Positions 3,659-33,400 of a stretch of 64,000 nt of DNA are shown in pieces. The stretch is from Candidatus Omnitrophota bacterium (GTDB lineage: Bacteria > Omnitrophota > Gorgyraeia > JAUYCX01). The notes beneath the pieces were generated by a model that worked only from the letters and a program-made list of their open reading frames with translations, made no database searches and had not been told where the DNA came from. The position numbers and the translations under genes were made by a program. Every line of letters starts with the position of its first letter. The stretch's first letter is position 1. Location: contig JAUYCX010000045.1 of NCBI GenBank assembly GCA_030692045.1, forward strand, positions 1 through 64,000, given 5' to 3'.

Positions 3659-3672
3659 TCGGGGAGGTGAGA
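3659..3672 (-). repeat. Copy of the tRNA-Pro 3' end
   Basis: The 14-bp TCGGGGAGGTGAGA is identical to 3852-3865, the 3' end (discriminator, acceptor and T arm) of the intact tRNA-Pro, and is in the same orientation. The similarity stops there. It looks like a partial duplication or an old attachment-site copy. The rest of 3673-3814 shows no gene. Confidence 0.7.
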
Positions 3673-3814
3673 CTTGCGAGCCGCCTTCACCAACTCACAT
3701 TTATGCGGCGAAGTGCCGAGGCTTTCTAATGCAAATCTTAAGAGCCAAGGCAAACCGCTGGCATATTCCCACTATCCTCCCTCGTTACTTACTTTCTTTG
3801 CCACAGCAACTCGG

Positions 3815-3853
3815 GATTAAATTCGCACACAATAAGTTATGGCGAATTTAATC
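3815..3853. repeat. Inverted repeat abutting the tRNA-Pro 3' end
   Basis: GATTAAATTCGC (3815-3826) and GCGAATTTAATC (3842-3853) are exact reverse complements around a 15-nt loop, overlapping the last two bases of tRNA-Pro. On the minus strand this hairpin follows the tRNA directly. There is no T-run, so a 3'-processing or repeat role is more likely than intrinsic termination. Confidence 0.7.
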
Positions 3854-3926
3854 GGGGAGGTGAGATTTGAACTCACGACCTCTTGGTCCCAAACCAAGCG
3901 CTCTAGCCAAACTGAGCCACTCCCCG
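3852..3926 (-). tRNA. tRNA-Pro (anticodon TGG)
   Basis: The minus-strand cloverleaf has acceptor CGGGGAG/CTCCCCG, anticodon stem CTTGG/CCAAG with loop TTTGGGA, T arm GTGAG/CTCAC with loop TTCAAAT, and discriminator A. CCA is not encoded. Both of its ends have extra partial copies nearby (3659-3672 and 4237-4256), and a GIY-YIG gene sits directly upstream. Confidence 0.95.
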
Positions 3927-3932
3927 AAAAAT

Positions 3933-4175
3933 TCATTTTTTAATTAACAGATTCTTTATTACTTCGCGACCTTTGCCTGTTTTTAAGAATCTTTCTCTTT
4001 TTAATGCCACTCCTTTATTAGTATACTCTTCTTTAATAACTAATTCCCAAGGTCTATAGGCTTTAGTAGACCTATTTTCACCTCTATTATGCTGTTGAAA
4101 TCGTAACTTAACATTTTCTGTTAACCCAACATAAAAGCGATTATTCTTTTTACTCTGTATAACATAAACATACAT
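3933..4175 (-). CDS. Small GIY-YIG domain nuclease-like protein
   Basis: The 80-residue protein starts MYVYVIQSKKNNRFYVGLTE, with the 'YVY...FYVG' form of GIY-YIG. It then has the R-x3-H motif in VKLRFQQHNRG and K/E residues near AYRPWEL and RERFLKTGKGRE. Stand-alone proteins of this size (UPF0213-like) are widespread in environmental bacteria and their cellular role is unsettled. The gene ends 6 nt before tRNA-Pro on the same strand and has a tRNA-Pro 5'-end copy on its other side. That bracketing suggests it may have arrived as a small insertion next to the tRNA. Confidence 0.9.
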   Translation of the reverse strand: MYVYVIQSKKNNRFYVGLTENVKLRFQQHNRGENRSTKAYRPWELVIKEEYTNKGVALKRERFLKTGKGREVIKNLLIKK

Positions 4176-4235: not shown

Positions 4236-4236
4236 C

Positions 4237-4256
4237 AAACTGAACCACTCCCCGAA
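4237..4256 (-). repeat. Copy of the tRNA-Pro 5' end
   Basis: AAACTGAACCACTCCCCGAA matches 3909-3928, the 5' end of tRNA-Pro plus two upstream bases, at 19 of 20 positions and in the same orientation. Together with the intact tRNA it brackets the GIY-YIG gene as a direct repeat. Confidence 0.72.
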
Positions 4257-32214: not shown

Positions 32215-32633
32215 TGGTGGAGGTGGCGGGATTCGAACCCGCGTCCTTAAATAGTTAGATAAAGCTTCTACATGCTTATTCTGTCTTTTAAATCTTACTG
32301 TTTATTTCTCCGACAGACAGGATACATAAACAGCCAGCCTTTTTGTTTTCGCTAAACCCCTAAAGGCTAATAGAGCTTAACTATCCTGTTTACCCCGCCA
32401 AAGGCGGGGTAATCCGCATTGATTAGCCGCCAGGAGAGACTAATCAAAGGCCCTACCTTATCTTAAGATAGGGGCTGGTGCAAAAACTGGGGCAACAATT
32501 GCCTCAGCCCTTGCTAATAAACGCGTATTTTCTTTTGCGTTTAGTTTTGCCTGGATTTTTTAGCGAGGCCAACCAAGCATTCCTCGGCATGCAACATTTA
32601 CCTAAATTACTTAAGTCGAAACCTTTCACCCCC
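32215..32633 (-). ncRNA. ssrA: tmRNA (SsrA), one-piece form
   Basis: The 5' end GGGGGTGAAAGGTTTCGACT and 3' end GGTTCGAATCCCGCCACCTC-CACCA pair in a tRNA-like acceptor arm (7 bp, one G-T), with CCA encoded. GTTGCATGCCGAGG...TTGGCCTCG near the 5' end matches the conserved tmRNA helix and pseudoknot 1 region. GGGGGTG starts at 32633. The message part most likely resumes at GCA 32550 or 32538 and runs to TAA 32458-32460, giving a 30- or 26-residue tag rich in Ala and Pro that does not end in LAA. tmRNA with SmpB rescues stalled ribosomes. smpB is the next gene upstream. A palindromic element separates the RNA from its promoter. Confidence 0.93.
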
Positions 32634-32635
32634 TT

Positions 32636-32891
32636 CAATGAGCAGATAACTTATGGAATCCGCCGAAGGCGGAGACATAAGTTATAGCGTCTATCATTCT
32701 ACTTGTATATCAGCGTCTGCGAATTGAATCAAGCACTAATTTTACCAAAAAACTTAATAATAAAAATTTGGAATTTAGCCAAATGAAACCACTTTATTTT
32801 GAAACCAGCACTATCAGTAAAATTAGTGCTGGGTCAAATTCAGACTTATAACTTAGCTTCGCTAACGCTCGCTAAGTTATGTCTTCATTTG
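32636..32891. mobile_element. 256-bp composite palindromic element inserted at the tmRNA 5' end
   Basis: It is bounded by a 15-bp direct repeat, ACCTTTCACCCCCTT, at 32621-32635 and 32892-32906. The ends are imperfect inverted repeats (CAATGAGCAGATAAC and, reversed, CAAATGAAGACATAAC). Left hairpin: ATAACTTATG...CATAAGTTAT around CCGCCGAAGGCGG. Centre: AGCACTAATTTT...AAAATTAGTGCT. Right hairpin: ATAACTTAGC...GCTAAGTTAT. It encodes no protein. It resembles a REPIN or MITE. The same architecture is found at 61860-62109. Confidence 0.85.
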
Positions 32892-32940
32892 ACCTTTCAC
32901 CCCCTTTATAAATTATACACGAAAGTTTAAGGTTTTTCAA
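32892..32940 (-). promoter_or_regulatory. tmRNA promoter, followed by a duplicate tmRNA 5' end
   Basis: On the minus strand TTGAAA (32940-32935), a 17-nt spacer and TATAAT (32917-32912) are followed 7 nt later by GGGGGTGAAAGGT (from 32904), identical to the first 13 nt of mature tmRNA. The -35 box begins right after the smpB stop codon. This is a textbook start for tmRNA, yet the real RNA body begins 271 bp downstream because of the element insertion. Confidence 0.8.
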
Positions 32941-32941
32941 C

Positions 32942-33400
32942 CTACCTATCCTTTCTCCTTAAAGCGCGCTTTATCTCTAAATTTATCTCCTTTTTCTTTA
33001 AGGCCTCGCGTTTATCATAGAGTCGCTTTCCCTTGGTTAAAGCAAGTTCTAACTTAACAAAACCTCGTTTATTGAAATATAATTTTAGAGGAACTAAAGT
33101 TAATCTTTTCTGATTTACCTCATTTGATAGACGCTGAATTTGAGCATTATGCAAAAGCAAGCGCCTGGTTCTTGTAGGCGCAACATTTAGATAACTTGCC
33201 TGTTCGTAGGGGCTAATATGCATATTGTAAAGAAAAAACTCTTTGCCCTCAATTCTGGCAAAGCTATCTTTAAGATTGACATTTCCTGCTCTAATGGATT
33301 TAACTTCGCTTCCCTTTAATTCTATGCCGCATTCGAATGTTTCTAATATAGTGTAGTCTCTAAAAGCCTTTCTATTGGTTGCAGAGAATCTTTCTTTCAT
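32942..33400 (-). CDS. smpB: SsrA-binding protein
   Basis: The 152-residue protein has the SmpB opening (NRKAFRDYTILETFECGIEL, KGSEVKSIRAGNVNLKDSFA) and the C-terminal basic tail (KGKRLYDKREALKKKEINLE, IKRALRRKDR) that folds in the ribosome mRNA channel. It binds the tRNA-like part of tmRNA. The gene directly precedes ssrA on the same strand, an arrangement seen in several bacteria. Confidence 0.97.
   Translation of the reverse strand: MKERFSATNRKAFRDYTILETFECGIELKGSEVKSIRAGNVNLKDSFARIEGKEFFLYNMHISPYEQASYLNVAPTRTRRLLLHNAQIQRLSNEVNQKRLTLVPLKLYFNKRGFVKLELALTKGKRLYDKREALKKKEINLEIKRALRRKDR

Follow-up and report, generated by a model that had tools for sequence, protein, structure and literature searches.

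Why does the tmRNA gene (ssrA) of an Omnitrophota bacterium have two copies of its start, and what is the palindromic sequence between them? We considered this locus within a 64,000-nucleotide stretch (hereafter, the window). The host is a MAG assigned to Candidatus Omnitrophota bacterium, phylum Omnitrophota, with an estimated contamination of 7.5%. Copies of the element described below are spread over many long contigs of this assembly, the window's own 158-kb contig among them.

Anatomy of the tmRNA locus

The tmRNA, its promoter and the insert all lie on the minus strand of the window (Table 1). A preliminary description of this DNA had proposed that the tmRNA start is repeated directly over 15 bp on either side of a 256-bp palindromic insert; the two 15-mers are indeed identical and separated by 256 bp, and GGGGGTGAAAGGT occurs in the window at these two sites only, even at one mismatch (expected number, 0.07). 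The reading of the repeat as a target-site duplication is supported, but its length has to be corrected: the hairpin pairing assigns 32634-32892 (259 bp) to the element, which leaves 12 bp (GGGGGTGAAAGG) as unambiguous duplication, and the remaining 3 nt match the element's own termini. The promoter upstream of the first copy, also described earlier, was recovered; when tmRNA promoters were compared across relatives, their mean score equaled that of shuffled sequences.

Table 1. Features of the smpB-tmRNA locus, in the order of transcription.
Feature	Position	Strand	Details
smpB, 152 aa, upstream of the promoter	32942..33400	-	PF01668, E 2e-57
tmRNA promoter TTGAAA-N17-TATAAT	32912..32940	-	11/12; 7 nt before the first start copy
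First tmRNA 5'-end copy AAGGGGGTGAAAGGT, upstream half of the target-site duplication	32892..32906	-	identical 15-mer
A-end hairpin TCAAAT-GA-AGAC...GTCT-GA-ATTTGA	32834..32892	-	tandem G.A mismatches on the tmRNA-sense strand
Inner arm A, CCCAGCACTAATTTT	32819..32833	-	
Non-coding centre	32744..32818	-	place of the GIY-YIG ORF in nuclease-coding copies
Inner arm B, inverted arm AAAATTAGTGCTTGA	32729..32743	-	2 changes relative to the consensus
B-end hairpin TTCAAT-GA-GCAG...CTGC-GA-ATTGAA	32634..32728	+	abuts the tmRNA start
Second AAGGGGGTGAAAGGT copy, actual tmRNA 5' end	32621..32635	-	identical 15-mer
tmRNA (ssrA), full length	32215..32633	-	ARAGORN; Rfam RF00023, 180 bits

The insert is a composite palindrome, as had been noticed, formed by two independent hairpins and a pair of 15-nt inverted arms. 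It folds much better than dinucleotide shuffles (z = -5.4 for RNA, z = -6.7 for DNA), and a scan for G.A-mismatch hairpins retrieved its two hairpins alone in 64 kb, with none in five shuffles. The Rfam search yielded no known RNA family over the insert.

A family of hairpin-bounded elements

Searching the host assembly at the DNA level produced 110 matching stretches. The distinct complete cores that could be delimited number 30, with lengths of 116-122 bp (26 cores) and 284 bp (four cores). Twenty-six of the 30 copies, the window copy included, have a roughly 120-bp non-coding centre, and in the other four the centre encodes a 79-aa GIY-YIG nuclease and nothing else. In total, 108 cores fall into three size groups (49-71, 107-124 and 275-286 bp), and the non-coding and coding (275-286 bp) copies have their hairpins and arms in common. 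The common layout comprises the A hairpin (TCAAAT-GA-NNNN...NNNN-GA-ATTTGA), the 15-bp arm CCCAGCACTAATTTT, the centre, the inverted arm and the B hairpin. The latter has the design of the A hairpin read from the opposite end, and hence the tandem G.A mismatches are on the 5'-terminal strand at both ends.

In 83 delimited copies, stem pairs 9-12 are Watson-Crick in 89-96% of cases and involve several pair types, as compared to 34-69% with shuffled partners, while the G.A positions 7-8 remain mismatched. The inner arm matches exactly in 177 of 216 instances, and the centre is not conserved. Five stretches of the host assembly (L009, L013, L015, L020, L030) carry the same B hairpin with a different centre (CCCCGAAGCC...), which suggests, from the sequences compared, a further non-coding subfamily.

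The arm pattern was found in at least 88 stretches of an 85,000-species collection, every one among the matches listed being from Omnitrophota. Within the class, 15 of 292 genomes contain it, the host assembly having by far the highest number (59 arm matches); the reversed control pattern gave no matches in the same 292 genomes.

Mobility and target sites

If the insert is a mobile element, related genomes should have the same loci without it. The joined flanks of six copies were compared with congeneric genomes, and five of them align across the junction to element-free loci. In the autonomous copy L088 the element is flanked by GGAGG on both sides, and the congener has a single AAGGAGG; similarly, L192 has GGAGG twice and its congener a single GGAGGT. 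About 2 nt are duplicated in L100, whereas L156 shows no duplication, its filled site being a few bases short. The empty sites in congeners at the loci of these other copies demonstrate, at the level of genome comparison, that the family is mobile.

Direct repeats of at least 6 nt anchored at both ends were observed in 15 of 83 copies, compared with a mean of 2.9 and a maximum of 8 in 300 shuffled pairings. The duplication length is variable, and many copies have none. The earlier suggestion that the window copy was inserted with a target-site duplication is thus upheld by the dispersed family, by the empty sites of other copies and by the enriched direct repeats. At the tmRNA gene, the empty site in a genome of the same family would read TATAAT-N7-GGGGGTGAAAGGTTTCG; other Omnitrophota genomes have the tmRNA without the element.

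As judged from the junctions, insertion favours Shine-Dalgarno sequences, AA^GGAGG. The B end is at most 30 nt away from a start codon (of an ORF of at least 60 aa) in 58 of 82 copies, as opposed to 20% of random positions; a start codon near the B end is absent in 24 of 83 delimited copies. This upstream-of-gene bias may reflect either a site preference or survival only at such sites, two possibilities that the data do not separate. ARAGORN, applied to joined and separate flanks, detected no tRNA or tmRNA next to the other delimited copies.

The strong bias in position and orientation upstream of start codons, together with the conserved hairpins, would also be expected of a non-mobile family of host regulatory leaders (structured 5' UTRs), the tmRNA duplication then being a local rearrangement. 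We regard this as very improbable. It is disfavoured by the empty sites, since congeners have the same loci without the element; besides, the downstream genes are unrelated, the centres are not conserved, some members encode a nuclease, and the distribution is patchy.

The GIY-YIG nuclease of the coding copies

Each 275-286-bp core contains a single ORF stretching from arm to arm in the A-to-B direction and encoding a GIY-YIG protein of 76-80 aa; two coding copies could not be oriented for this count. The ORF of one copy (L110) was scored in the opposite direction; the left end of this copy has B-type sequence, and we read the score as an ambiguous orientation call. The protein matches the Pfam GIY-YIG family (PF01541, E about 1e-9), with invariant residues Y7, Y18, Y19, Y21, R27, R28, H32, E49 and E56, among which are the conserved Tyr, Arg and Glu of the catalytic domain. 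Sequence comparison and the structural model (pLDDT 89) both give UPF0213, SLX1 and I-TevI as the best matches, none of the fold matches having an E-value under 0.001. In comparisons between genomes, dN amounts to about 0.06-0.25 and dS to about 1-2.8, demonstrating, as far as substitution rates can, that the nuclease is under purifying selection. Of the four coding copies in the host assembly, two are intact, one is cut short by a TAG, and the reading frame of the fourth contains a TGA. In this last copy (L008/L070, contig C98:20380-20607) the TGA comes early in the ORF at a position where other copies have TGG, and the copy may be read as decaying.

The nuclease and the arms co-segregate. 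All five genomes in which the cognate nuclease (E <= 1e-36) was observed carry the arms, and about 109 genomes that have no arms all lack it; in G091 a single arm match occurs with no cognate nuclease. A profile search for further GIY-YIG genes in 117 genomes of the class revealed arms or G.A hairpins at about 18 of 30 loci, and a perfect inverted repeat of 13-24 bp, most often starting with ACCC, at 21 of 22 loci examined. The arm CCCAGCACTAATTTT is paired with the protein ..LKHYGQARTHLKNRL.., and CCCCCACACCAATTAT with ..LKLRSRAFxQLKKRI..; the Mantel correlation between arm and protein is 0.55 for 20 loci and was reached in none of 5000 permutations. Hence, by this comparison, related GIY-YIG subfamilies have their own arms that co-vary with the protein. 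A search of viral contigs for the nuclease retrieved two distant relatives only.

Could another enzyme act in trans? The genome contains six Y1 transposase (Y1_Tnp) genes, and the mismatched hairpin ends, one of them with a GGAG motif, are reminiscent of REP sequences; accordingly, the insert might be a REP- or MITE-like element moved in trans by a Y1 (HUH) transposase (RAYT/TIRYT), with the GIY-YIG gene as a passenger. However, none of the six Y1 loci has G.A hairpins flanking the Y1 gene as in RAYT/REP systems, so that these transposases were rejected as bracketed partners. The GIY-YIG protein, in turn, is the only one encoded between the arms, is under purifying selection, and co-varies with the arm sequence. 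IS200/IS605-type insertion leaves no direct repeats, whereas here they are enriched. We therefore consider movement by a Y1 enzyme unlikely.

Other GIY-YIG genes adjoin tRNA genes. A different one, of 80 aa, is located in the window at 3933-4175 (minus strand). It has an intact tRNA-Pro (3851-3927) on one side and a 20/21-bp repeat of the 5' end of this tRNA (3908-3928 vs 4236-4256) on the other, as if it had been inserted with duplication of the tRNA-Pro start; a fragment resembling a tRNA 3' end is found nearby (3659-3676). Three free-standing GIY-YIG genes of the host assembly (L062, L064 and L065, at C14:287487, C51:10767 and C14:170634, respectively) also adjoin tRNA genes, one of them with an 18-bp tRNA-end repeat and one within a 14-bp perfect inverted repeat.

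Recurrence at tmRNA genes

The tmRNA start ATAAAGGGGGTGAAAGG (AAGGGGG) resembles AAGGAGG, mimicking in its sequence the Shine-Dalgarno-like target of the element. The B end abuts the tmRNA start in six of 384 genomes, about 0.2 being expected by chance (a rough estimate). In five of the six (the window, G003, G044, G091 and G304, representing four families) there is also a G.A hairpin at the tmRNA; the sixth, G034, has TCATTGA near the tmRNA and no G.A hairpin, and was left out. The window copy, alone among these five elements in having kept the duplicated tmRNA start, is hence probably the youngest. In the other four the inner sequences differ and no duplicate start is seen; they are therefore either members of sister subfamilies or older, decayed copies. 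In G091 and G044, long nested palindromes with inner arms TCCCGTT...AACGGGA lie between smpB and the tmRNA (L214 and L215), possibly, by their sequence, another hairpin-element subfamily. The host assembly has a second tmRNA with its own diverged smpB on a 4.5-kb contig (L208, C109:1-4456), which is probable contamination of the MAG.

Hairpin ends abutting the tmRNA in five genomes of four families would be explained if an insert of the same family had been exapted and now served the tmRNA in processing or regulation, or as an internal promoter; the element upstream of the tmRNA in G091 does contain a promoter-like site (10/12). On the other hand, no promoter scoring at least 10/12 was found inside the window element, a check that the preliminary description had called for, and the 11/12 promoter is situated upstream at the expected distance. 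Moreover, most sampled genomes have no element at the tmRNA, and resemblance to the target suffices for the recurrence. Exaptation thus appears quite unlikely.

Predicted consequence for the tmRNA transcript

A transcript initiated at 32904 would carry a structured leader of about 271 nt, and, by analogy with normal tmRNA maturation, this leader would be removed by RNase P. For the two competing 5' strands anticipated earlier, the support comes from a fold prediction. In the predicted ensemble, the 3' acceptor forms 7.0 expected pairs with the first copy and 0.05 with the second one, whose partner is instead the element's B end; relative to independent folding, the energy differs by about 5 kcal/mol. 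The prediction is thus that the acceptor pairs with the duplicated start in preference to the true 5' strand, although, as the model ignores pseudoknots and tertiary contacts, the fold shows such competition to be plausible only. The duplication provides a defined natural test of which of the two identical 5' strands is chosen by RNase P and by folding.

Proposed mechanism

Our preferred explanation, with a probability of roughly 0.7, is that the insert is a non-autonomous, MITE-like copy of an Omnitrophota family of mobile elements whose coding copies have one GIY-YIG nuclease of about 79 aa, related to UPF0213/SLX1, between the arms; this nuclease is the putative driver of movement into Shine-Dalgarno-like sites. 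We infer the catalytic role of the nuclease from its linkage, conservation and co-variation with the arms, all of them properties of sequence; another enzyme, such as one of the Y1 transposases, could act in trans.

The nuclease would bind both inner arms and cut at the extruded mismatched hairpins. The element would then join a purine-rich Shine-Dalgarno-like site, with the A end after ..AGG and the B end before GGAGG, presumably via two nicks with a variable stagger and in an order that we can only suggest, and after repair about 2-15 nt would remain as direct repeats. Its resemblance to the target would make the tmRNA start AAGGGGGTGAAAGG acceptable. Because the promoter is retained and an intact tmRNA start is restored when the element enters at the first transcribed base, the gene is expected to survive, with a leader in front of it.

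More tentatively, and at somewhat less than even odds, these elements may constitute a separate class of bacterial mobile elements, in which DNA bounded by G.A-mismatch hairpins is transposed, and aimed at Shine-Dalgarno-like motifs, by a GIY-YIG nuclease standing alone and not by an enzyme of the DDE, HUH, tyrosine or serine type. If the GIY-YIG enzyme does transpose the element, such aiming means that insertions upstream of genes would spare them. Ribosome-binding motifs as apparent safe insertion sites, along with repeated hits at tmRNA, would then be an unusual targeting strategy. In the open-access (PMC) literature searched, we found no description of such an element, which is weak evidence. 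Stand-alone UPF0213/COG2827-type GIY-YIG genes are, to our knowledge, common in bacteria, and their function is largely unknown; here, a set of GIY-YIG genes occurs in small mobile elements that have no other gene and whose ends, targets and non-coding derivatives are defined, so that the role of this type becomes testable.

Comparison with known systems

Group I introns and genomic islands occur in tmRNA genes (PMC11915505, PMC3146451) and, similarly to the Omnitrophota element, are mobile DNA targeting tmRNA. Unlike them, the element lies ahead of the mature RNA, at the base where transcription begins, and involves neither splicing nor an integrase att core.

The double-hairpin elements of fungal mitochondria, as far as we know, encode no enzyme, whereas coding copies exist in the Omnitrophota family. 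What the two have in common is that they are mobile and consist essentially of hairpins (for the fungal elements, see Paquin et al. 2000, cited in PMC7218506).

GIY-YIG homing endonucleases and Penelope-like retroelements are likewise selfish elements with a GIY-YIG nuclease (PMC1564403). In contrast to them, the element considered here has no intron or reverse transcriptase, enters numerous sites that have a short motif in common, and is accompanied by non-coding derivatives. Both candidates were rejected for the insert. For a homing endonuclease intron, the Rfam search gave no intron match to the insert in the window, and copies are mostly located just upstream of genes; for a Penelope-like element, the ORF fills the 275-286 bp from arm to arm, leaving no room for reverse transcriptase.

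REP/REPIN sequences with their RAYT (Y1) transposases resemble the family in having dispersed intergenic copies and mismatched hairpins that are likely recognised as folded single strands; RAYT-like genes flanked by terminal inverted repeats have been called 'TIRtrons' (PMC3733652). The Omnitrophota element, however, has no Y1 gene inside or adjacent to it, is larger, and possesses inner arms, direct repeats and an internal GIY-YIG gene.

MITEs with an autonomous partner provide a further comparison. In both cases short non-coding copies share termini with rarer coding copies, and there are inverted ends, direct repeats and many copies per genome. The differences are that the coding partner here has a GIY-YIG nuclease and no transposase, that the termini are structure-conserved hairpins, and that the duplication is of varying length. 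Three properties by which MITEs are recognised are observed in this family: dispersed copies sharing termini, inverted ends common to the coding copy, and presence/absence polymorphism accompanied by duplication.
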